From contig JAJEKV010000084.1 in NCBI GenBank assembly GCA_021234155.1, forward strand, positions 3,539,702-3,603,701: a stretch of DNA of 64,000 nucleotides, given 5' to 3'. Source of the DNA: Isoetes taiwanensis (Eukaryota > Streptophyta > Lycopodiopsida > Isoetales > Isoetaceae). The notes below the pieces were generated by a model. That model saw nothing but the letters and a program-made list of their open reading frames with translations, did not search any database and was not told where the DNA came from. Below are positions 13,205 to 58,750 of the stretch, one piece after another (position 1 is the first letter of the stretch; every line of letters begins with the position of its first letter). The translations under genes and the position numbers were made by a program.

Positions 13205-13640
13205 TCAGTTATACTTGAGGCATATAACTTTAAATGTCTCCCCTTGTAATAGCATCTTGTAATGTTAATAGCTCGTAATAGCATCTTCACGGTATTTGAG
13301 GCACTTAACTTCACATGTCTCCCCTTGTAATAGCATCTCATACTGTTCATAACACGTAATGCATCTGCACAATTTATACAATTTGTAAAACTGTACAGAT
13401 TCTAATGTACAAAGGGCTAAATAGTTACTGTAATGCAAGGACTAAACTCGTTGAATAGCATGTAATAGCATCTGCACGATACTTGATGCAGATAACTTTT
13501 ACATATCTCACCTTGTAATAGCATCTTATAATGCTGATCACACATGATGCATCTGCACAATTTATACAATTTGTAAATCTGTACAAATTCTAATGTACAA
13601 AGGGCTAAGGTTTACTTTAATGCAAGGACAAAACTCAGAA
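13205..13640. repeat. Tandem repeat downstream of nitrate reductase
   Basis: Two long units (about 13278-13455 and 13468-13640) share 'ccttgtaatagcatct', 'gcatctgcacaatttatac' and 'aatgtacaaagggctaa'. A partial copy lies before them at 13205-13277. The second unit runs right up to and includes the nitrate reductase stop codon, so the duplication borders or overlaps the 3' UTR. Confidence 0.85.
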
Positions 13641-16604
13641 CTGATAAATGTTGTCCTTGTCATGGCCCAATTTGTCAAGATTCGGCAGGCAAGCATATTG
13701 GATCATTGGAGGGGGTCCACAGATGAATATAGCTGTATCAGAAGCAGCCTCCGGCAAATGATCTTGGATTATCTTCTCTGTAATGAACCCAACACTGTAC
13801 GGCCAATCTTGTGTTGACGGATTTGAAACAACATACCACACTTTAAAGTTCTCGTGCTCTTCTTGCCATCTGTCAAGCTCCTTTCTAAGCATTATATCCT
13901 CCTCTTGTCTGTTTGCATATATAAGAAATAATTGTGTCTGGTCTTGCTCATCATGGAGGATGGTCTTTATAAGCTGAAACATGGGTGTGATACCAGTTCC
14001 ACCTGCAAGCATGCCCATTTTTCTTGCATATTTGAGCATCCCAGAGACTGTAAATTCTCCCTTTTCTAGGTAATAAATGTGGCCGTACGGGCCCTTCACC
14101 TGAATGCTATCATCAATCTCTAAGCTGTCCAGATACTGTGACATAAGGCCACCTTCAGGGAATGATGGATGCACATTTTTAAAATAAACCCTAATAAATA
14201 ACTCAAAGAAGCCAACATCAGCATCTGTGCTTGTTGGTGTGTATGCTCTCATGCAGAGTTTACCGTTGATGGTTGGAGACAGCATTACATGCTTCCCAAC
14301 TGGCAGACCCAAAACCTGTTCTTCAGAAGGTAGACTGAACCTCAGCCTCCTAATATCATGTGTCAAGCATTCCTTTTCAATGAGTTTACAACTAATGCTC
14401 TGCTTAGGGTCCACAGGAAGAGCAGTAGCACTAGTTTTCATAGAAAATTCTGGAATGGAACCTAGTCTTCTCATTGCTGCCAGTGCTTTGTTATTCCCAT
14501 GTAATGAGCTCTCTGGAGTTGTATCAGAAGAAATGCTACCATGGAGAAGGTCACCAATTCTAAAATCTTCCAAGAGCGCACGGGCTTTGGAAGAATGTAT
14601 GGCATCAAATTCTTCTGTGCAATCTGTACCTGCATTTATCAGGATGCTATCTACACCACCTGGGTGGTCCTTGAGAAATGAAGTGCAATCGTATACATTG
14701 TTGTGAATCACAATCCAACATGATTCTGCTTTGTTATGTTTCCTAACCTCTGACATTGAAATTAGGTGGGGAACTGACTTTCCCAGGGCTGGAGTGGATG
14801 CACTTCTAGTAAGTGGAAGCTGGTCTTCCTCATCCTTTTTAACCATCCATCCACCTGATTGATTTCCAGCCAATGTGGGATGTTCAAAAAGAAGACCAAC
14901 ACCTCCTCCCTTGCGTTTGCAAGGATTCACGTGAATTTTAAACCAGCAGTTATTCATCATTCCCTGTGATCATATAAAAAATTAGCAATTATTCAAAGTC
15001 TGTAACTGGCCTTCAACAACTTTCTAATTACCATAACATTCCAAATAAGATCCTTTGGTTGAGTGTTCAAACTCTCATCCCAAGCTCGAACAGCCAGCTG
15101 TTTGGATTGAAGCAACTCAATTACTTCCACATCCAATTGCCAGAAGCACCAACACCAGTATTTTCCATACTTGGTAGGCTTTTCTGGATGGTTGAGAGTG
15201 CATATTTTCCAAGTACCACCATCATCCAAACTGACCTCTACCCTAGTGACCTTCCTACCACCCCCTGTACATCCAGCACATTATTTTACATGATGATGCA
15301 ATTCAATTCAATAAGATGTAAGATAGTATACCTGAGTATGCATAGCCCTTAAGCGTGTACGGGGACTGTAAGGTCGACGGATTGATTAGCAGTACATCTC
15401 CATGAACAGGTGTGGTAATAACAGAGTTAATATTAAGGTCATTTATGATGTAATTCGGATTAAACCACCAGCCTGTACAAAAACAAAAAGGTTAGGAAAT
15501 GTCACCTTAAGGTACTTAAAACCAGAAGAAGCTGTAAAAAAGAAAAGAAAATGGAGGGAATCCAAAAGATCAAAAAGTACCTTCAGAATTTGCCATCTCA
15601 GCATCCACATGAGAAGGAAGAACACGATTATCTTTGTAATGGTAGTAGTTAGAGGACTCGACAGAAGTAACTTCAATCTTTTTCAACCATTTCACCATTC
15701 TGCCACCAATAAATCCTGGTATAATCATGCGAACAGGGAAGCCATGATCAGGTTGAAGCACCTTTCCATTTTGCATGTAAGCAATGATTACATCTTGGGT
15801 CACATCCAAAGCCTTGTCTATGCTAATGCAAGTCCCATAACCAGAACCCGAAGCTGCAGGCAGCTTATCTCCACCCTCAAAACAAACAAATCGGGCTCCC
15901 TTTTTTTTAGATAGGACCCCACATGCTCTTAAAAGATCACAAAGGCGAACACCACGCCATATAGAAGTGCTCAATCCTGCAGCTCCCCAATTAAAGCCAA
16001 TCGTTTGTTGCACCATATTTTGTTCCTTTCTTCTATTGCCAGCACATACTAGAGTTACAGGAAGCTCTCGAGCTTGGAATTTAAGCAGATCATCCATGGA
16101 AAATGACCTTGGCATTTTTACCAAACCACAAACCTCCACCTTCCAGGAGTCCCATGCCCCCTGAGCAGAAGCCCCATGGTTCCTCACATAATGCAATGAC
16201 GTTGGAGTAAGAAAGCCATGCTCCATTAGTTTTTCTAATGGAGGCTCACTATTAAAGGGATGTCTTCCCGTCAGCCGAATCATGCTAGGATGTCTAGGAA
16301 TCCAACCGTCTGCTGTTCCTTCGTCTCTTTCATCTATGCTACCATCCTTCCTTATATCTAAGGGCACAACATATTCCATTTCTTCTTCTTCATCCTCTTC
16401 TTCTTCCTCATGCACATGGCCATTCTCTTCATACAAATGGCCATTCTCATCACCAATCGAGCCCCAAGAAACAATACTCCTTTTAGGAATAATTGCCACA
16501 CTATGAAGCTTCTCCACAAAATGATCAGCAGTTAGTGATGCATGTGCATCAGACAATATTACCGGTGCTTCCACCACAGAGATACCCATCGTATCCAACA
16601 TCAA
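13635..16604 (-). CDS. NIA: Nitrate reductase, assimilatory (four exons, 908 aa)
   Basis: This cytosolic enzyme reduces nitrate to nitrite with NAD(P)H. Exons read on the minus strand are 16604-15581, 15472-15332, 15264-15032 and 14963-13635. All introns are GT..AG and the frame stays open for 909 codons with stop. Three introns at these places match plant NIA genes. Domains: acidic N-terminus (about 55-95); molybdenum cofactor domain with the ligand Cys187 in [13 protein letters not shown]; dimerisation region (about 345-460); hinge with RSASTP, a 14-3-3 consensus with Ser522; cytochrome b5 with haem His566 (HPGG) and His589; FAD domain with RAYTPTS (705-711); NAD domain with GGTGITP (787-793) and CGPPPM (Cys881). 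All key residues are present, so the gene is probably functional. The start Met is the first in the open frame. Confidence 0.97.
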
Positions 16605-40699: not shown

Positions 40700-42582
40700 T
40701 TTCGGCAAGCAATCTTGTGATCAACTAGGATTATGGTTCGGTGGAGTATGATTGTGATTCAGGGTTGTTGAAGTCCGGCTTTAATGCTTTTGCAATAATA
40801 CCTTTCTATGGAGCAAGTAACTAAATTGGTGATTCACTGCAATACCAAATCTTTCAGCTAGAAAAAGTTAGAGGCTTCAATAGTGATTTACATCAGCATA
40901 AAATTTTCGGCTAGAAAAGCCATAGCAAATGGATCTGTGGTAGAGAGAGACATCATTGTTTGCTTACTCAGTGAAACTGTGGCATGATTCACCAAGTAAT
41001 ATTCAATTACAAATAATATAATCTTTTGAGAATGTTGGATGAATATTCAACACTCCCCCTCAGCCAACATTCATGTGTTTGATACTAATAGCATCACAAA
41101 AATATTCATGCTTTCTTTCGGATAATGCTTTCATCAAGATATCTGCTTCTTCTTTGGAAGTAGGAATTTACTACAACTCAACTTCACCTTTCGCCACTTT
41201 CTCCCTTATGAAATGATAATGCAGATCATTATGTTTTGACCTTGGGTGCAACACTGGATTCTTAGTAATTGCTATACAACTTTTATTGTCACAATACAAT
41301 TTAGTTGGGCTAAATTGCCATAACCAAATTAGTTCTCTTCTTGCCAAAGAGGCAACGACATATTCTAATTCAACTCTTGACATGGCCAAACAATTTTTCT
41401 CGTTGCGACACCATTGTGCCATTAAGTTTACACAAATATCCTAATGTGGATTTTTGTTTGTCCATGTCTCCTGTCCAATCCGCATCGGTATAGCCAGTCA
41501 ATTCTGCATAACCAATCACCTTAGGATTACTATCAAAGCTTTTAGTGTAGCAAATATATATAGCACATGGTATACAAAGTATCTAAGGATACGCTTGGTG
41601 GCTATCCAATGTTCCCATCCTGGGTTAGTCAAATATGTACTCAAAGGGCCCCAAATGCAATATCTGGTTTTGTGGCATTTTTCATGTAAAGCAAACTTCC
41701 AATGAGCTCTTTATAAGGTATTCACTTTTTTCCTTTTTTCTTCCTCAACCATTGGATACAAATCTCCAGAAATGCTTTTATAAGCCACTAGAGGAATTGG
41801 TACTGATTGTCATAAAAAAAAAGTGTCAAGCATCTTCCTAATATATTTTATCTATATTAAAGCCAACACTCCAATTTGCCTGACTTTGTAAGCCTCCATG
41901 CCCAAAAGTTTTTTGATTTACCAAGATCACTCATCAAAAGTATAGCTTCCAACACATCTTTGTACTCATCCATAAATCTTCAATCATTAGCACTCGTGAC
42001 ACAGTCATCAATATACAATTCTATGATGCAAATTTACCATCTATCTTTTTGATGTACAAGTTACCTTCACTCTCCAATTTTTCCAAACCCTGTACAATAG
42101 ATAACTATTCATGCATACATACCATAGTCTAGATACTTGCTTAAAACCGTACACTGCCTTTTTAAACTTAGAGACTTTATTTCCTTGCACCTCAAATCCA
42201 ACTGGTTGATTTCCTCCCGGAGAAAGCTGTATTGTCGAGCTTTAAATCATGCTTAACTGCTATGGCAATCAAGACTCGCAAATTTGTTAGTTTAACAATA
42301 GGAAAAAAAGTGTCATGATAAACTTTAACAGCTTCTTGAGTAAAACATCAAGCCACCAATCTAGCTTTATATCTTTCAAATTTTCCATTTAGGCCCCCTT
42401 TTATTTTAAAAATCCGTTTACATCCTACCATATTTTTATCTTTTAGTTGAGGTCTGAGATCATACATACTTGTCTGTTTAACAACTCGAGTTCTTCTTGT
42501 ATGGCCTTTCTCCAACTGCATCCGGTAAGTTGATAGCTTCATCATATGTTTCAGGCTTCTTAACCCACAGCATTGCTGGTCG
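40700..42582 (-). mobile_element. Ty1/Copia retrotransposon remnant (minus)
   Basis: Minus-strand reading gives KKPETYDEA (start of RT) at 42580, then KDKNMVGCKRIFKI, KFERYKARLVA, a LYIDD catalytic motif near 42010, and the RNase H part AQWCRNEKNCLAMSRVELEY (41.4 kb). It ends with a typical Copia polypurine tract (GGGGGAG on the element strand at about 41054-41060). The 3' LTR (TGTTGAATATTCATCC...) then runs leftwards from about 41053. The left LTR boundary could not be fixed. Frames are broken. The RT is cut on the right by the long-LTR element at 42583. Confidence 0.8.
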
Positions 42583-44630: not shown

Positions 44631-44704
44631 TGTGACGTTCCACGTATTTATACGGTATATGTATAAATAAGCTGACACGTCACCCAATAAAGGTACGCCA
44701 CCAT
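44631..44704 (+). repeat. LTR B, first 74 bp only
   Basis: It starts TGTGACGTTCCACGTATTTA just after the polypurine tract, closely matching the start of LTR A, and is cut off at the inverted LTR C. Confidence 0.65.
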
Positions 44705-45540
44705 TGTGACGTCCCCTACTCGCATACGGTGCACTCACCGTATACAAACAGGAGTTCATCCCCCATACCAGCTCCATGCCGATACAGGGCCCTCCACATG
44801 ACACTGCAACCGCGGTTGGGTTCCAAAGGGGAAGAGGAAGGGGTCATTTTACCCCGCCTCCTCGTGGCCTACCTAGCTGCGGAAGCGTAAACATACATGT
44901 CAAGATACAACATAATCACATATCCACCTCGGCGGGTGGTCCATCGATCTCGATGAGACAAAGATCAAAGACAATGCACATGGGGAATCCCTACCCAAGG
45001 CTCAGACTCGATGGGATGACTGACGGCTTGGGTCTCCAGAGTTCATTGCAGACAGAATTCATGGCAATGGATTTGACTGGCATAAGAACATGGCATCGGG
45101 TTGTCCACTCCATCCGCCTCTCCCCGTGCACACTTTGCAGAGTAGGCTGAAAAGTGCCTGACCTCGATCAGAGCTCACGGATGCATAGCCGAAAGGGCTA
45201 TTCCCGGTCTCATCCTCCCAGCCTGGATGGGGCAGGAGGGGATTACTCCCCTCCGTAGATTTGCATGCCGACTCAAGGTGACTAGAGGGCCAACGCCTGA
45301 TTCGACCGGGAACCCACCGAAAGTGTACACCACTTCACGGGTGTCGAGTCCATGCCCTACCCACACTCAGTGGTAAGCCATTAGACCTAGTCACAATGAT
45401 CCCTGGTAGGCCTTACACACCAGAGGGATCGTTCAGGAGTCAGAACATGAACCTCCTTCTTAGCCAGTCTGGCCCCTTCACCCACAACCAGGTGTGGTTC
45501 TTGTACACAGGCCGAATCTATAGTGTGCTAGAGAGGCTAA

Positions 45541-45580
<40 letters not shown>

Positions 45581-47375
45581 TATGAATATGTTATATTATA
45601 GAGAAAGTGTTATACATATATCCCACGTATGGGATTAATAAAGCTAGCCTTTGCATTCCTGAACTCAAATCATCATCAACTAACCAGTGACACTTAAAGA
45701 AAACATAAAATCCTTGGATCATACCAATCCTGTCAAGAGCTTTGTTATAGTTGAGCCCATATTTTCGATGATGGGCGAGAGCCATGAGAGCCACCTTCAT
45801 ATTAAAAATATTCTTCATCTTGTCCAAGGAGAATTGTTGTCCCCCCATCTTCCATATTGTCCACAGCCCTATGTTGAGCAGAGACGCAGAGATAACATCT
45901 CCATCAGTAGCTACAATTATTCCTGGCCATTGTAGAACATTGGTACCAATGAGCTGACACACCCAATCCCGTAAGATCATGACCTTGGGGCAAAAGAATA
46001 AATGAGTGAGGGTTTCGAGGTATTGCATCCAAGCGGGCATCCGCCACTCGGAATAATCCCATTTCCGAGAGTCTCCATAGTGCTCAATCCTCCCCTCAAA
46101 GCTAACCATCCAAAATTGCAACCTTCTTGAGCAGAGTGAAGTCCATGACTTAGCTAGTAGTTGTTTTGCCTCAGACAAGATCAACTCCCAACCCGCCGCC
46201 AGCCTTTTAAGGGAGTCAACACCTGAGAAGGCGATATATCGTGGCGACAACATATTTCTCTTCTTCCTCGCCATGTGCCCATCCATCACACCGGGCCTTC
46301 CTGTCCTAAAAGATTAGCCAAAGTACTACATATTTCTCGGTAGATCTTCCTATCACCCTCCCCTGCATCTTGAACCTTTTCTTTAAAGCGAGACCAGGAG
46401 AGCCACCGTACACCATCCCAAAGATGTGCCACTCTAGTGATTCCTGCTGACCTCCACTTAAGAAAGATGCAGGGGTGTGTGAGAGCTAGAGGGAGGTTAT
46501 TTCTCATCCATATCTGAGTGTTCCAGAAAATGCTCAGCTTTCCAGCCTCCCTCGGAGCTTCCATTGGCTTAAAAAGACTTTGAACTTCTAACCAAGCCTG
46601 TAGCAGCTTCCGCATAATTGGTGATGTGCCTGGGGCAATTTTGTAACAATAAAAGAAGGAACCCATTTCCTCCCTGGGTAAAGAAGGCTTACCTTTTAAA
46701 GTACAACGTTGAAGCCAATATTTGACAAAGTGCAGAGCTAGGGAGGTAATACCTCGTAGTGCTCTCCACACATATTTGCCTGCGAGTACCTGGGCTTGAG
46801 TTTCCAAGTCCTTGCACCCCATCCCACCATCCTTTCGATCCATACACAGTTCCGACCATGCCACCTTATGCATTCCTCCCCCCCATATAAACTTCCTGAT
46901 GATGGTTTGGATTTGATTATAAATGTACTTAGGAGCTACCATAGCTGAGGAATAGTATACATGAGAAGCTGCAAGGACTGCATTGGCAACTGCAATCTTT
47001 CCAGCGATCGCAAGCCTTTTTGCTGACCATAAGTTGACTTTCTTTCTCAGGTTGTCCAGAATAGGGGTCCAGGGTCCTTTTAGATTATCGGAAAGGACCA
47101 GGGGTAAACCAAGCAATTTTGTGGCTTCATCTTTGAGGATGCGAAATCCAAAGTCTTTTACCCTCGAGAGAGGCTAATCTAGGAGCATCTACTACCAAGC
47201 TTTAAGTCTCTACCCCCCTTCCCAATACAAGGAGTTCATAGAGCTACATCATCCATATACATCACAGAAGAACTAAAGAACTATATCTAATCTATATCAT
47301 AGAGTTAGGTTCTTTAGTTAGAGTCTGGTCTAGAGATCTAGAGGGCTGCTTTAGGCAATTTAATAGCTTAAACCC
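44705..47375 (-). repeat. LTR C (minus), interrupted by a LINE
   Basis: It reads TGTGACGTCCCCTACTCGCA at 44705, the reverse complement of an LTR 3' end. It runs to a hairpin centre near 47375. Apart from the LINE inserted at 45544 it is the mirror image of LTR D, about 1.03 kb of LTR sequence. It lacks the 5' 600 bp present in LTR E. Confidence 0.75.
45544..47166 (-). mobile_element. 5'-truncated LINE with 14-bp target-site duplication
   Basis: On the minus strand a 276-codon frame (47116-46286; LWSAKRLAIAGKIAVANAVL, then PKYIYNQIQTIIRKFIWGGG) and a 232-codon frame (46289-45591; LETLTHLFFCPK) form the RT thumb and C-terminal region. They overlap by four bases, so one frameshift separates them. 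The poly(A) tail is the T run at 45543-45575. AGAGAGGCTAATCT occurs at both borders (45530-45543 and 47167-47180), and the uninterrupted sequence is seen in LTRs D and E. A clean target-primed insertion. Confidence 0.93.
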
Positions 47376-47389
47376 CATTTCAGTCATAG

Positions 47390-48756
47390 AATCAGCAGGT
47401 TTAGCCTATTAAATTGCCCATAGCAGCCCTCTAGATCTCTAGATACCAGACTCTAACTAAAGAACCTAACTCTATGATATAGATTAGATATAGTTCTTTA
47501 GTTCTTCTGTGATGTATATGGATGATGTAGCTCTATGAACTCCTTGTATTGGGAAGGGGGGTAGAGACTTAAAGCTTGGTGGGTAAAAGCATGTTAGGGT
47601 GTCCCTTAAAAAGTATTATTTAGTGACCAAAAAAGTACCTGAAAAGGTAGCCAGGACTGGGTACTGGGTACCTATGTAATATTGCAATAAAAGATACGTT
47701 TTAGAACTTTTATATATATTTTGGTCTCCGATAGCATTATATTATCTTACTTTGTATATTAACATATTCTGGACTTTTATTTTGGATTTTTATATTAGTT
47801 TTAATAAAAAGAAAAATGAGAAAGTACCCAGTTCTGAAGTACCTAGTGTATGTACTTTTGCGGGTTCCAAAAGTGGTACACCCTAACATGCTTTTACCCT
47901 GGTAGTAGATGCTCCTAGATTAGCCTCTCTAGCACACTATAGATTCGGCCTGTGTACAAGAACCACACCTGGTTGTGGGTGAAGGGGCCAGGCTGGCTAA
48001 GAAGGAGGTTCATGTTCTGACTCCTGAACGATCCCTCTGGTGTGTAAGGCCTACCAGAGATCATTGTGACTAGGTCTAATGGCTTACCACTGAGTGTGGG
48101 TAGGGCATGGACTCGACACCCATGAAGTGGTGTACACTTTCCAGTGGGTTCAGTCGAATACGGGCAGTGGCCCTCTAGTCACCTTGAGTCAGCATGCAAA
48201 TCTCTGGAGGGAGTAATCCCCTCCTGCCCTATCGGAACTGGGAGAATGAGACCTAGGAATAGCCCTTTCGGCTATGCATCCGGCGGGCTACAGTCAGGTC
48301 CCGACACTTTTCAGCCTACTCTGCAAAGTGTGCACAGGAGGGGCGGATGGAGTGGACAACCCGATGCCATGTTCTTATGCCAGCCAAATCCATTGCCATG
48401 AATTCTGTCTGCAATGAACTCTAGAGACCCAAGCCGTCAGTCATCCCATCGAGTCTGAGCCTTGGGTAGGAATTCCCCATGTGCATTGTGCTGATCTTTG
48501 TCTATGCAGATGCGATGGACCACCCTTCGAGGTGGATATATGATTATGTTGTATACTGACATGTATGTTTACGCTTCCGCAGCTAGGTAGGCCCTGAGGG
48601 AGACGGGGTAAAATGACCCCTTCACTCTTCCCACTGGAACCCGACACGGTTGCAGTGTCATGTGGAGGGCCCCGTGACGAAGATGGAGCTGGTATGGGGA
48701 TGAACTCCTCGTTTGTATACGCGAGTGCAATCGTGCACGCAGTAGGGGACGTCACA
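47390..48756 (+). repeat. LTR D (plus), partial
   Basis: It ends GTAGGGGACGTCACA at 48756 and is followed by a primer binding site. Its left end is the hairpin shared with LTR C, so the two form a palindrome. It contains a 319-bp MITE. Without it the length is about 1.04 kb. Confidence 0.8.
47581..47899. mobile_element. MITE, 319 bp, TIR GGGTAAAAGCATG
   Basis: The ends are inverted repeats of 22 bp (GGGTAAAAGCATGTTAGG... at 47581, its reverse complement ending at 47899). TGGT is duplicated at the borders (47577-47580, 47900-47903). The empty site AGCTTGGTAGTAGATG is seen in LTR C and LTR E, proving insertion. No coding capacity. A 4-bp duplication does not point clearly to one superfamily. 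Confidence 0.92.
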
Positions 48757-48757
48757 G

Positions 48758-48769
48758 TGGTATCAGAGC
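48758..48769 (+). promoter_or_regulatory. Primer binding site for initiator tRNA-Met (LTR D)
   Basis: TGGTATCAGAGC lies one base after the LTR end. It is the complement of the 3' end of plant initiator tRNA-Met, the usual PBS of plant LTR retrotransposons. Confidence 0.92.
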
Positions 48770-48962: not shown

Positions 48963-49231
48963 GTCTCACACGTCGCACCAGGACAGATAATGTGAATCTC
49001 ATTTTCGGGCTGGGCGCAACGTGTGAGACATTCAGCTTGGAATACACGAAAAAGTTATAAATTACAGAAAAATAACTTGATAATTCTAATTTTGAACTAA
49101 GAGGTAGTAGAATTGGCAGGTTACATGCTTACAAAATATAAAATTTAGCAGCGGGACCCACCATGTCTCACACGTCGCGCCAGGACAGAAAATGGACTTT
49201 CCATTATCGGGCTGGGCACAACGTGTGAGAC
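48963..49231 (+). repeat. Two 67-bp hairpins in the left leader
   Basis: 48963-49029 and 49165-49231 each begin GTCTCACACGTCGC and end in the near-complement (ACGTGTGAGAC), enclosing CCAGGACAG and GGGCTGGGC. They lie between the PBS and the TATA box. Confidence 0.85.
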
Positions 49232-49417: not shown

Positions 49418-49570
49418 ATGGCAAGGACCAAACAGACGGCAAGGAAGCCCTGCCGACGCCGACGCTTCAAATGCCAAATGACTCCCGCTCGATTCAAAGG
49501 ATACTCCAAGAACGCTTTTCCGCAAGGCGAATCTTCATCCAAAGGAGGAGGCGCACTCGACCGAGAGTGA
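49418..49570 (+). CDS. Retroelement first ORF with histone H3 tail N-terminus (left copy)
   Basis: The ATG at 49418 opens MARTKQTARKP. Residues 2-10 are identical to histone H3 A1-K9, including Lys4 and Lys9. Pro replaces Ser10, and no H3 globular domain follows. The next part is basic (CRRRRFKCQ) then Ser/Gly-rich (QGESSSKGGGALDRE), with a stop at 49570. In another frame acidic sequence resumes at once, so this 50-codon ORF is probably the frameshifted start of a longer protein. It occupies the gag position, about 650 bp after the primer binding site. A real histone H3 gene is excluded by the absence of the histone fold. Inference: a histone-tail mimic. Confidence 0.75.
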   Translation: MARTKQTARKPCRRRRFKCQMTPARFKGYSKNAFPQGESSSKGGGALDRE

Positions 49571-50150
49571 CGAACGGGAGGTCCTAGATGACGAAATCTC
49601 GCATTATCATGCACCAGATCCTCGAAGAAATCGCCGAGGAGGAAAGGAGGAGCAAGGAGGAACGAGCGCAGAGGGGACAGCCGACCGTCGAGGAACAACT
49701 CGAAGCTTGGGCCCGTCTGCAAGAAGCTGAGGAGAGGGAGGAACAGTGACACCCGGAGCTTAGTCTTGCTGAAGAAGAAGACCTCGCGGCGTTCATCAGC
49801 AAATATGAAGCCAAGGAGCGCCGCCGAGAGAGGAGGACGAGCCTAGCACAAAAGTGAGCCAAGAAGAGGAAGGCCAAAGGCATTAAGGGTAAAATGTAAG
49901 AGTTGTGAAGGTTGGTAAGCGAGGGCAAGGTCCCGTCATCAATGAGCCATCAGGCGAGCAGACCCCGCCTTCGACCGACGACTCGGACGAGGATTACGTC
50001 CCCAACACAGAGGGGGCAAGCTCTTCGAAACCCCCGGCCGTGGAGAAGGAAGTACCGCAGTGGCAACCGAAGAGGAGCAGCCCGCAAGCCAAGCCCCCAC
50101 CTTTCCCCGACGCGGATAGAGTTAAAGCCCCCGCTGCCACAACGGGAGGC
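49571..50150 (+). pseudogene. Continuation of the H3-tail ORF (left), frameshifted
   Basis: Frames after the stop encode charged, coiled-coil-like sequence (MHQILEEIAEEERRSKEERA at 49609, and VEEQLEAWARLQEAEEREEQ). From 49905 comes an acidic Ser/Pro-rich stretch (PPSTDDSDEDYVPNTEGASS). 49571-49888 aligns with the inverse copy at 50163-50540. No zinc knuckle, protease or RT is seen. Confidence 0.45.
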
Positions 50151-50162
50151 GACGGGGTTGAT

Positions 50163-51183
50163 GCCTTTTGCCTTCTTCTTCTTCGCTCACCGCTGTGGTT
50201 GGGTTGTCCTCCCGCCTCTTTGTCCTCCCCTCGGCGGCGCCCCCGCCTTCGCACTGCCAATGAAGCGTAAGATCTCGCTTCTTCTCGGCTAAGCGCCGGG
50301 CCGCCGCCGCTTCTCTCCCTTTGCTCCTCCCGGCAGGGGTCTCGGGCCCGAGTTGCTCCTCGCCGTTGATCGCCTGCCTGCTCCCTGCTGTTCCCTCGCC
50401 CTTCCTCCTCCTCTCGCGATCTCCTCGAAATTTGATGCATGATGTCCGGGCGGTCGCCCTCTATGATCTCTGTATGGTCGCTCCGATCCGATCCTGCATC
50501 TTCGCTCGAAGAAGATTCGCCTTCTTGGAAAAGGCATTCTTGAAGGACTCTCTGAAAGAGGCCAGGACCGCTGGCGCTGGAGGATTCGCTTCGGCGAGGC
50601 ATTAGAGGAAAAATTAGATCACATTTTGTCCCATTAAAGGATGCTTAAAATGCCATGTCAGCTTTTTAAACTGTCCAATAAGAGAAGAGCTCCAGTATAT
50701 CTCATTCCAGTATTACGTGGCAGCCTGTAATTAATGCAGCTGTAACTAACTTCTCTGGTATCATTTTTTCATTATAACTTTTGATCCATAACTCCGATTC
50801 AAAAACTTTTTGCAGCAATGGGTTCGTCGTCACAAGATCTATCTAGTGATAACCCATTCATACATCTTTTACGATATAAATATATAAGAAATAAGCAAAA
50901 AATCCTATTTTTATAAGGTTAACGCATATGACCATATTGAAATACATCATAACCATATATCATTGGAAAGATCTTTTCATTCCGCATCTAATGCAACAAA
51001 CGCCGCAACATTTTGACAAATGGATCAAAAGTTATGGGGGAAAACAACAGCAATGAAGTTGTTGGTGCTGCATTAATTGCAGTTAATAGAGGGTAGCCAT
51101 TCCATTGGAGGATTCTTATGGGGATCAAATGAGATCTCAAATTGCCTCTAATGCTTCCTAGCAGTCTGTTTTGTGCGGGCCAT
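50163..51183 (-). pseudogene. H3-tail ORF, inverted right copy, split by a MITE
   Basis: On the minus strand the ATG at 51183 opens MARTKQTARK (51183-51154). The 554-bp MITE follows immediately, and the frame resumes at 50599 with PRRSESSSASGPGLFQRVLQ, then EGESSSSEDAGSDRSDHTEI and an Arg/Glu-rich part. The stretch after the tail aligns with the left copy (both reach GESSS at the same place) but has many amino-acid changes. The first ten residues are identical while five codons differ synonymously. Pro follows K9 here also. Confidence 0.65.
50600..51153. mobile_element. MITE, about 554 bp, TIR CATTAGAGG
   Basis: It begins CATTAGAGGAAAAATTAGATC and ends in the imperfect reverse complement (GAGATCTCAAATTGCCTCTAATG). 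About 35 bp of TIR align. It interrupts the right H3-tail ORF between codons 10 and 11. Comparison with the left copy gives the empty site (aaggaag|cc). Target duplication is at most GC (2 bp). Non-coding. Confidence 0.85.
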
Positions 51184-51366: not shown

Positions 51367-51647
51367 GTCTCACACGTTGCGCCCAGCCCGAAAATGAAAA
51401 ACTCATTTCCTGTCCTGGCGCGACGTGTGAGACATGGTGGTGAGACATGGTGGTGTCCACTATTAAGTTTAACACTTTTTAAACATGTAATTTGCTAATT
51501 CTACTGATTCTTAGCTCTAATTTAGAATTATCAAGCTATTTTACTGTAATTTACAACTTTTTGGTGTGTCTAAGCTGAATGTCTCACACGTTGCGCCCAG
51601 CCCGAAAATGAAAATCTCATTTCCTGTCCTGGCGCGACGTGTGAGAC
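51367..51647 (-). repeat. Two 67-bp hairpins in the right leader
   Basis: 51367-51433 and 51581-51647 are the inverted-copy counterparts of the left hairpins, with the same length and arms (GTCTCACACGTTGCGCCC / GGCGCGACGTGTGAGAC). Confidence 0.85.
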
Positions 51648-51839: not shown

Positions 51840-51851
51840 GCTCTGATACCA
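51840..51851 (-). promoter_or_regulatory. Primer binding site for initiator tRNA-Met (LTR E)
   Basis: GCTCTGATACCA on the plus strand is TGGTATCAGAGC on the element strand, one base from the LTR end. Confidence 0.92.
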
Positions 51852-51852
51852 C

Positions 51853-53542
51853 TGTGACGTCCCCTACTCGCATACGGTGCACACACCGTATACAAACAGG
51901 AGTTCTTCCCCCATACCAGCTCCACGCCGATACAGGGCCCTCCACATGACACTGCAACCGTGGCGGTTCCAGTGGGAAGAGTGAAGGGGTCATTTTACCC
52001 CGTCTCCCTCAGGGCCTACCTAGCTGTGGAAGCGTAAACATACATGTCAGTATATAAGAGCAACCCACGTATATCCACCGCTTAGGGCGGTACATCACAT
52101 CTGCAATAGACAATGATCAGCACAATGCACATAGGGGAATCCTACCCAAGGCTCAGACACAGGGATGGACTGACAAGCTTGGGTCTCCAGAGTTCATTGC
52201 AGACAAAATTCATGGCAATGGATTTGGCTGGCATAATAACATGGCAATGGGTAGTCCACTCCATCCGCCCCTCCTGTGCACACTTTGCAGAGTAGGTTGA
52301 AAAGTGTGGGGACCTAACTGTAGCCCGCCGGGTGCATAGCCAAAGGGGCTAAGTCTACTGGGTTACATCTCCCCAGTCCCGATGGGGCAGGTAGGGATCA
52401 CTCCCTCCAGAGATCTACATGCTGACTCAAGGTGACTAGAGGGCCACTGCCCTTGTTCGACTGAACCCAATGGAAAGTCATAAACACCACTTCACGGCCC
52501 ACACTCAGTGGCAAGCCATTAGACCTAGTCACAAGGATCCCCGGTAGACTTTACACACCAGAGGGATCGTTCAAGAGTCAAAACACGAACCTCATTCTTA
52601 GCCAGTCTGGCCCCCTTCACCCACAACCAGGTGTGGTTCTTGTACACAGGCTGAATCTATAGTGTGCTAGAGTGGCTAATCTAGGAGCATCTACTACCAA
52701 GCTTTAGGCCTCTACCCCCCTTCCCAATACAAGGAGTTCATAGGGATACATCATCCATATACATCATAGAAGAACTAAAGAACTAGATCTAATCTATATC
52801 ATAGAGTTAGGTTCTTTAATTAGAGTTTGCTATCTAGAGATCTAGAAGGCTACTATGGGCAATTTAATAGGCTAAACCTACTGATTCCATGACGAAAGTA
52901 GGGTTTAGACTATTTAATTGGCTAAGTACCTGATCCTTGGGTTCCTCCTCCTGACCTGAGTTCGACCATCCTGCTGAAATGCTCGAATCAAGGGAAACTA
53001 AGGGTGCAATTCTCTCAGGCAGAGTCTGGGAAGCGGTTTTGACCCTTGGGGCAGCCAAAACAGAGCTCTAAAACCCTAGAAACGAAAATGGGCAAGTTAG
53101 GGTTTCCCTTCCTAAATAGACAAGGGGTTGGCTAGGGTTTCCAATTATCCCCTTTAGGCATGTGGGATAATTGGTAATGGGCCCACTTGCCTTTAATGGC
53201 TAGGTGGCCAAATGTGCCCACATGGAAATGTGTGCACCCAAATGTGCTCACATGGAAATGTGTGCACATTAATGAATGTGCACATTGGAAAATGTGCACA
53301 TTAATTACACCTATAGGTATGGCCCACTTGGCATAAGGTGTCCATATTGGAAAATGTGCACCTAGGTTAATGTGCACATGGTTAAATGTGCACATTAGCA
53401 ATTGCACATTCCCTGCAAGTTGCCCCCTAGGGGCTACCCGCCTGGCTATACTTCGGCGTACACGTCAGTCGGGGTGGCGTGTACGCGTGACGAGGCAGTA
53501 CAGTATACGTCCTGGGACCGTATATTGTACTGGAACGTCACA
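51853..53542 (-). repeat. LTR E (minus), complete, 1690 bp
   Basis: On the minus strand it starts TGTGACGTTCC (53542) and ends GGGGACGTCACA (51853), with inverted termini TGTGACGT/ACGTCACA. It contains the small hairpin (around 52862-52922) at which LTRs C and D are joined. The right border falls directly in the HAD-like frame at 53543. Confidence 0.88.
53205..53405. repeat. Degenerate GTGCACA repeats within LTR E
   Basis: About eight variants of 'aaatgtgcacat' occur in about 200 bp, each holding the palindrome TGTGCACA or a close variant. Confidence 0.75.
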
Positions 53543-57720: not shown

Positions 57721-57775
57721 ATTTTAAACTTAAAGAAGACCAATACTTTTTTGCATTTTTCACATCGTAAAGTGT

Positions 57776-58750
57776 TAAAGAGCCTGAAACCTATGATGAA
57801 GCTGTCAATTCTCCTATTGGGACAAGTGGAGGAAGGCCATGCAACAAGAAGAACTCGAGTTGTTCAAGCAGATAGGTAGCTATGATCTTACACCTCGACC
57901 AAAAGATAAAAATGTGGTGGGATGTAAATGGATCTTTAAAATAAAGAAGGGGTCTGATGGTACCGTTGAGAGGTATAAAGCTAGCTTGGTGGCTCGAGGA
58001 TTTACTCAAGAAGCTGGTAAGAATTATCATAACACGTTTTCCCCTATTGCTAAACTAACAAGTTTATGAGCTTTGATTGCATAGCAGTTGAGCATGATCT
58101 AGAGCTCGACCATATGGATGTAAAAATGGGTTTTCTCAATGGGAATTTAGAAGAAGAGATTTATATAGGGCAATCGGTCGGATTTGAGGTGCAAGAAAAT
58201 CAGGTCTGTAAGTTAAAAAAGGTAGTATATGGGCTTAGACAAGCAACTAGACAGTGGTATGTATGCATGAATAGCTTTTTGTTATCACAGGGGTTTGAAA
58301 AATCAGAAAGTGAAGGAATTTGTACATAGGTGATAATTTCTGTATTATTGCTTTATATGTTGATGATTGCGTAATGAGCGCAAGTGATAGAAAATTTTTA
58401 GATGAATGCAAAGGCATTCTGAAAGCCAGATTCCAGATGAGTGATCTGGGTAGTTTGAAGAAACTTTTGGGTATGGAGGTCACTAGAAGGAAACTGGAAC
58501 ACTTATATTGACTCGGAAACAATATATTAGGAAGATGCTTGATAGGTTTACGGAATGTAAAACAGTTCTGACACCTCAAGTGGTCAGTAATAGGATTTGT
58601 AAAAGTGTGTGTCCTGAAATGAGAAAGAGAAAAGCCAAATGCAAAAAATACCATATATGGAGCTGATAGGAAGTTTACTCTATGTTGCCAATGCCACAAA
58701 CCAGATATTGCATTTGTCATAAAATTTTTGAATAGGTATTTGAACAATCC
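57776..58750 (+). mobile_element. Ty1/Copia retrotransposon, RT part (5' of LINE insertion)
   Basis: The fragments give EPETYDEA, KDKNVVGCKWIFKIKKG, VERYKASLVARGFTQ, EHDLELDHMDVKMGFLNGNL, VCKLKKVVYGLRQATRQWY and IALYVDDCVMSA (YVDD catalytic motif). Stops and frameshifts break it. The sequence ends at NRYLNNP where the LINE enters, and resumes at 63163. Confidence 0.88.

Follow-up and report, generated by a model that had tools for sequence, protein, structure and literature searches.

The probable 5′ remnant of a histone H3 variant gene in a retrotransposon, with a proposed use in chromatin

Introduction

Host silencing of retrotransposons acts partly via histone H3 and its K4 and K9 marks. 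What, then, is the tail of this histone doing at the start of a retrotransposon ORF? The question is raised by a window (the whole stretch of 64,000 nucleotides of Isoetes taiwanensis DNA that was analysed) in which plus-strand positions 49418-49570 translate as MARTKQTARKPCRRRRFKCQMTPARFKGYSKNAFPQGESSSKGGGALDRE*, a product of 50 aa that starts MARTKQTARKP. Our answer is that this ORF is probably what is left of the 5′ end of a gene (ORF1) with which a retrotransposon encodes a histone H3 variant, and we propose a use in chromatin for the variant.

Results

Two truncated copies meet head to head in the window

According to the initial annotation, an ORF in a long-LTR element begins with an H3 tail, and the translation, the pattern match and the very many genomic copies described below all bear this out. 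The features concerned are listed by position and strand.

44700..45543 (to 45576 by eye), minus: third LTR fragment of the same family (sequence match stops at 44700)
47900..48757, plus: 3′ stretch of the copy 1 LTR, with more LTR pieces at 47167-47580
48758..48769, plus: PBS-like motif TGGTATCAGAGC of copy 1, 660 nt upstream of the tail (motif search)
48963..49029, plus: leader hairpin 1 of copy 1 (-31.9 kcal/mol, z -5.9)
49165..49231, plus: leader hairpin 2 of copy 1 (-33.6 kcal/mol, z -7.0)
49418..49447, plus: H3 tail codons M-ARTKQTARK of copy 1 (translation, degenerate pattern match)
49418..49570, plus: the 50-aa ORF, which preserves the 5′ part of the decayed H3 gene (ORF1) of the element (translation; tblastn with the ORF1 of locus L039)
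49418..50150, plus: ORF1 remnant of copy 1, ending short of the histone fold (tblastn, DNA match)
50158..50600, minus: ORF1 remnant of copy 2 beyond an insertion, meeting copy 1 head to head (tblastn, DNA match)
50601..51152, minus: MITE-like insertion with termini ATTAGAGG / CCTCTAAT, immediately following the copy 2 tail (by eye)
51154..51183, minus: H3 tail codons M-ARTKQTARK of copy 2 (degenerate pattern match)
51367..51433, minus: leader hairpin 2 of copy 2 (-39.3 kcal/mol, z -7.8)
51581..51647, minus: leader hairpin 1 of copy 2 (-39.3 kcal/mol, z -8.6)
51840..51851, minus: PBS-like motif of copy 2 (motif search)
51853..53184, minus: LTR of copy 2, at least to 53184, where the compared L039 piece ends (86% over the whole 2,073-base match including the LTR)

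Both copies are truncated and join head to head at 50150/50158. With the ORF1 of L039 as query, copy 1 was matched by three tblastn pieces, to stop-to-stop residue 298 (about 247 from the ATG) at 50132; its DNA match to L039 stops at 50150, and the inverted copy 2 starts at 50158. The fold of the L039 ORF1 begins at residue 329, and neither this ORF1 nor host H3 as query gave a fold match in the window, because both copies break off at the head-to-head junction ahead of the fold.

Within the window the degenerate tail pattern was found at two sites, 49418 (plus) and 51154-51183 (minus), each time mismatch-free, and the two tails are identical in 9/9 residues with silent differences in 5 of the 9 codons. 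On the minus strand copy 2 reads MARTKQTARKH*, because the inserted stretch starts immediately after the tail, the L039-like sequence stopping at 51153 and restarting at 50600. By eye, a possible 2-base GC duplication accompanies the MITE-like insertion at 50601-51152.

The motif TGGTATCAGAGC is what we take to be the usual plant initiator-tRNA-Met PBS. The ORF at 49418-49570 had been called the first one past the PBS; a PBS-like motif does lie upstream, but further ATGs come earlier in the leader of copy 1. Both leaders contain two similar 67-nt hairpins each (GUCUCACACGU...ACGUGUGAGAC), which might serve as signals for packaging the element RNA or for its dimerisation. As for the third LTR fragment, no tail pattern was found past 44700; its outer end adjoins a long A tract, and this tract lies behind a stretch in which LINE-like ORFs were seen by eye (45591-46942, minus).

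The tail recurs throughout the genome

Across the genome (1,658,258,908 bases in 1,110 contigs) the tail pattern had 516 + 535 = 1,051 exact matches, some of them host H3 genes, and 1121 + 1200 = 2,321 matches when up to two mismatches were allowed. Read backward, the pattern gave 0 matches genome-wide in the exact and mismatch-tolerant searches alike, and it appeared in 0 of 100 shuffles of the window with up to three mismatches allowed; on these two controls a chance match was rejected. The first 30 of the 1,051 exact matches formed our tail-selected sample, in which two loci (L035, L036) are true histone H3 genes and the other 28 run on into varied sequence (KPRPGE, KVVPPGY, KYNERPT, KVSKDD and others).

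Since this sample was chosen by the tail itself, two further samples were drawn, by the fold and by the leader. The fold search used an 80-residue query and returned 8,184 first-look candidates, an unscored set in which other histones and noise are to be expected; the 150 matches that were scored all had E values no higher than 5.6e-42 and identities of 89-100%, and 46 of them lie in open frames of at least 400 aa, one with an internal TAG. The best 30 of the 150 make up the fold-selected sample. For the leader, a 175-base query gave 998 candidates, of which 40 were scored, leaving 39 once the window's own was omitted. Both samples consist of top-scoring matches, are biased to well-preserved copies and overlap in places; within them the exact tail was found in 18 of 30 fold-selected loci (one or two mismatches in 3, more mismatches or no tail found in 9) and in 26 of 39 leader-selected copies (one mismatch in 4, at least three in 9). 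Three of the nine fold-selected loci lacking a good tail (L056, L062, L066) have a decayed tail near the expected position. Many copies are therefore broken, the exact tail being absent from 12/30 and 13/39 copies, all of them best-scoring matches.

These counts uphold the expectation of many copies with an intact tail, some with much longer ORFs, and they go against the possibility, raised at the outset, that the tail is absent elsewhere or stems from a capture common to just these two copies. Among viral contigs the tail pattern plus CC had 0 matches, and a 172-aa ORF1 piece had 11 pattern matches, none confirmed as a relative.

Fuller copies run on into a histone H3 fold

Fuller copies have 388-433 codons and comprise the H3 tail (residues 1-9), a long, charged linker of about 290-335 residues, and an H3 fold near the C-terminus. 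The Pfam scan, which took in L039, L040, L048, L049, L054 and L028, matched PF00125 above the cut-off in each (E 1.5e-22, 5.9e-9, 6.3e-28, 1.5e-27, 9.2e-27 and, for the divergent L028, 2.4e-21). Against PDB the L039 ORF1 matched 175 distinct sequences, the best being histone H3 (E 4.9e-22), and among the matches listed (60 of 175) all are H3 or H3 variants and none is CENP-A.

Six fold-selected loci (L048, L049, L054, L063, L064, L070) carry complete ORFs of 400-433 residues, from MARTKQTARK to a stop behind the H3-like C-terminus HIKGERP (HIKGEPP in L063), and L028, from a family with an unlike linker, has a complete ORF of 388 residues. In L043 and L065 the frame is open through the fold and has different ends. 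All fold-selected loci that are open from the ATG through the fold have the exact tail (8/8). A downstream fold match was found in 26 of the 28 tail-selected non-host loci (25 to the element fold; 1.5 kb examined), L021 having a 16-residue match to host H3 and no element-fold match, and L025 and L026 showing no fold match within 1.5 kb downstream of the tail. In L041 and L042 the ORF1 frame closes ahead of the fold, remnants of which are found in other frames.

ORF1 thus shares with canonical H3 the H3-type fold, free of gaps, and ARTKQTARK from residue 1 after Met. It differs in that S10 and the remaining tail do not run straight into the fold; instead about 290-335 residues lie between K9 and the fold, a long insertion that has no parallel in canonical H3, and the fold is identical to host H3 in 44-52 of 89 positions (49-58%, gap-free, in the seven complete ORFs). 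CenH3 has a divergent tail and a longer loop 1, whereas the element ORF1 has a canonical tail and a gap-free 89-residue fold, and we do not class it as CenH3.

The initial annotation stated that no histone fold follows the tail, which holds for the two window copies and fails for the family (PF00125 E to 6e-28 in fuller copies). Its proposal of a tail mimic without a histone fold drew on window copies that consist of tail and linker pieces only, but these end at the junction before the fold, and for the family the proposal is refuted by the fold in the fuller copies; we give it practically no chance. Since the fuller copies have an H3 fold, ORF1 is best read as an H3 variant with a long insertion after Lys9 and not as a free-standing tail mimic.

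Two minor observations concern the same loci. By eye, the L048 ORF1 contains the stretch VKVYQKKIKEHNAYMAKWEAYNAYYQEHR at about 255-285, just before the fold, with a weaker counterpart in L028; and L039 has repetitive, tandem-like minus-strand frames (CHLGSNMPRW) at 833-2633, downstream of the H3 ORF.

Tail and fold look strongly constrained

Over the 15 pairs formed by the six complete ORFs, the pairwise differences in tail codons 2-10 add up to 34 synonymous and 0 non-synonymous. The dN/dS is 0.038 for the fold, where pS between complete ORFs is about 0.46, 0.18 for linker codons 61-326 and 0.50 for codons 11-60; the pairwise sums are non-independent, so these ratios are descriptive and not a test. 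When L028 was compared with the six ORFs the counting method gave 10.0 non-synonymous tail steps (six pairs) despite identical residues, because the paths cross two arginine codon blocks. The non-silent tail changes in the 30 leader-selected copies that have no more than two mismatches were A1V, R2K, R2Q and A7T (mature numbering), once each, in a tally that omits the 9 copies with more changes. Tail and fold therefore look strongly constrained, and as the tail codons vary at silent sites a constraint at the level of DNA or RNA rather than protein is disfavoured.

These patterns also bear on whether an H3 gene was swept up by chance and has been copied along functionless. There is a fungal example of a transposon that captured an H3-like gene (PMC3538342), but the tail changes among the complete ORFs are silent only, the fold combines its low dN/dS with extensive silent divergence, and the same arrangement occurs in families with unlike linkers, which makes a chance passenger very improbable. 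ORF1 is almost certainly an element-encoded H3 variant under selection, as judged from these comparisons.

Just beyond the fixed tail the residues vary. The residue after K9 is Pro in 14/28 tail-selected loci (otherwise Val, Arg, Tyr, Ala or Phe), in 20/21 fold-selected loci (Thr in 1/21) and in 30/30 leader-selected copies, and Ser was found at this Ser10 equivalent in none of the copies with up to two tail mismatches (28, 21 and 30; overlapping samples). The replacement of Ser10 by Pro, noted from the window, accordingly fits copy 1 and nearly all fold- and leader-selected copies, but as a rule it fails in half of the tail-selected ones.

In the two ORFs inspected (L048 and L028) the fold keeps C110, H113, D123 and L126, which we take to be H3-H3′ contact residues, as well as R69, R72, R83, K115, R116 and T118, presumably DNA contacts. 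R63 is replaced by Pro and R63-L65 are changed in both, so stable nucleosomes are not assured.

Such conservation helps to weigh the idea that ORF1 encodes a decoy, a soluble H3 look-alike that would soak up H3 chaperones or K4/K9 writers and readers outside nucleosomes and so weaken silencing. The tail residues read by K4/K9 enzymes are indeed fixed, and the long linker would expose the tail, but a decoy needs neither the DNA-contact nor the H3-H3′ residues that are kept in the two ORFs inspected, nor a dN/dS of 0.04 across the fold. We consider a decoy unlikely.

The carrier is a Ty3/Gypsy element

ORF1 lies between the PBS and gag in Ty3/Gypsy elements, and the matching integrase group has a chromodomain. 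Behind the ORF1 region, L040, L041 and L042 have a second ORF (ORF2) and then PR-RT; gag is present in L041 and L042 and in L040 as remnants of 26-28 residues, and RNase H was identified by a Pfam match in L042 and by a tblastn match in L041. ORF2, between the H3 ORF and gag, occupies the following positions.

L040, 3815-5355: ORF2, split over two frames
L041, 3766-4734: ORF2
L042, 3689-5245: ORF2, 519 residues stop to stop

ORF2 is conserved between families at about 30-50% identity. Pfam gave no match in the L040 pieces or in L042 and one chance-level match in L041, and the single PDB match of the L042 ORF2 had E 1.4.

One element, on contig C33, was followed from LTR to LTR over two loci, L042 and then L073. 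The order gag-PR-RT-RNaseH-INT was found in it, with gag and RNase H by Pfam and PR-RT by tblastn. In L073 the integrase core (E 1.4e-6) fell below the cut-off and the SH3 domain reached 1.4e-22; of the chromodomain only the start is present before it is broken (E 0.0011, below the cut-off). Past it lies a direct repeat that shares about 85% identity with the LTR upstream in L042. LTR and PBS both belong to the element; besides the window, 14 of the 34 tail-bearing loci listed contain the PBS motif.

A search with the broken end from C33 as query found L115 and L116, which break at the same position, and L118 (on C1056), which has a whole chromodomain (PF00385, E 8e-12) and was read without its upstream ORFs. 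What ties ORF1 to a chromodomain integrase is the C33 element, together with how closely the integrase ends resemble one another. In the window's own subfamily, L054 at C908 runs into a rearranged stretch (L117) that has ORF2- and gag-like parts on one strand and PR-RT on the opposite one, and in the 10 kb of L039 none of the ORF2, gag or pol queries matched.

The position of ORF1 brings in another reading, in which the protein compacts element RNA or cDNA in virus-like particles and the tail mainly matters after nuclear entry. Some giant viruses encode histones that are used in particles, ORF1 is encoded ahead of gag in the same element, and a histone fold with basic stretches could bind nucleic acid. 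Particle packing, however, leaves unexplained why all nine tail residues are fixed and the next ones variable; moreover, H3 normally requires H4, and the Pfam scan of ORF2 and gag pieces brought up no second histone. We therefore think it improbable that this is the main use.

Discussion

A proposed use in chromatin

An exact tail from residue 1 to 9, a free stretch and a constrained fold are what one expects of a protein that enters H3 pathways at both ends. Ala after Met is a standard signal for Met removal, which would leave a free A1. The protein would then pair with host H4, as histone biology and the kept H3-H3′ and most DNA-contact residues suggest, and host chaperones would load it into nucleosomes, where its tail would present K4 and K9 to host writers and readers. 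Nucleosome loading with the tail open to K4/K9 enzymes is, going by the sequences, the most likely course, with particle packing and the decoy as its rivals. Overall we lean slightly towards the view that the ORF1 protein acts in chromatin; that it helps to target or protect the element is possible but doubtful.

The most likely use would be a self-made nucleosome on element DNA, or in the chromatin around integrating copies. Such a nucleosome could bear K4 and K9 marks, though S10 and the segment K14-K36 would be missing, and it could be read by the chromodomain integrase that the element itself encodes. More tentatively still, these steps might close into a loop of self-recognition, in which K9 (or K4) is marked by the host, the protein is loaded on the element's own DNA, and the product is read by its own integrase. 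If so, new copies would land in, and keep, a chromatin state supplied by the element itself, and with neither S10 nor the K27 region this state would be subject to fewer controls by the host.

Relation to known systems

In Pyrenophora tritici-repentis a hAT DNA transposon carries H3L, an H3-like gene with PF00125, and is the closest precedent that our searches turned up; H3L has 26 very similar copies in the reference genome, all with tail insertions, and its authors suspect drift, possibly of the fold (PMC3538342). Here, by contrast, the carrier is a retrotransposon, the A1-K9 tail is exact, tail and fold show signs of selection, and the tail has 1,051 exact matches.

Chromoviruses are Ty3/Gypsy elements with an integrase chromodomain and share gag, protease, RT, RNase H and an integrase with a C-terminal chromodomain with the elements described here (PMC2864245), which differ by two added ORFs between PBS and gag, the first encoding the H3 variant. 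The chromodomain that defines the group is whole in L118; in the ORF1-linked C33 element it is below the cut-off and cut short. A plant Ty3/Gypsy lineage has gained an extra protein domain before, in orchids, although that domain is reported to be an m6A RNA demethylase (PMC9289625), whereas here it is a histone.

H3-tail letters in a foreign protein are also reported for SARS-CoV-2 ORF8, and influenza NS1 is a short viral histone mimic. To our knowledge such short viral mimics have no histone fold, whereas here an H3 fold follows the tail in the same protein. In a literature search judged by the titles and opening abstract lines of the papers listed, with most subscription papers and bioRxiv outside its reach, we found no retroelement-encoded histone, and the word 'histone' is absent from the main text of the Isoetes taiwanensis genome paper (PMC8566536). 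A mobile element with an H3 gene was already known; within the literature so covered, we know of no equal to a retroelement system with such a gene under selection.

An element lineage whose own H3 is apparently selected, with K4 and K9 frozen and the rest of the tail replaced, amounts to a natural experiment that asks which residues of the tail are required by an invader. Core histones, it suggests, can be selfish cargo, and the element may make or imitate host chromatin; whether transposons supply their own chromatin becomes directly testable. For annotation there is a risk, as H3-like gene predictions in such a genome may be transposon genes.

Further observations in the window

Two inverted, decayed stretches at 41893-42564 and 57774-58479 look Copia-type pol-like by eye. 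On the minus strand at 13635-16601, adjacent ORFs resemble, again by eye, parts of plant nitrate reductase.
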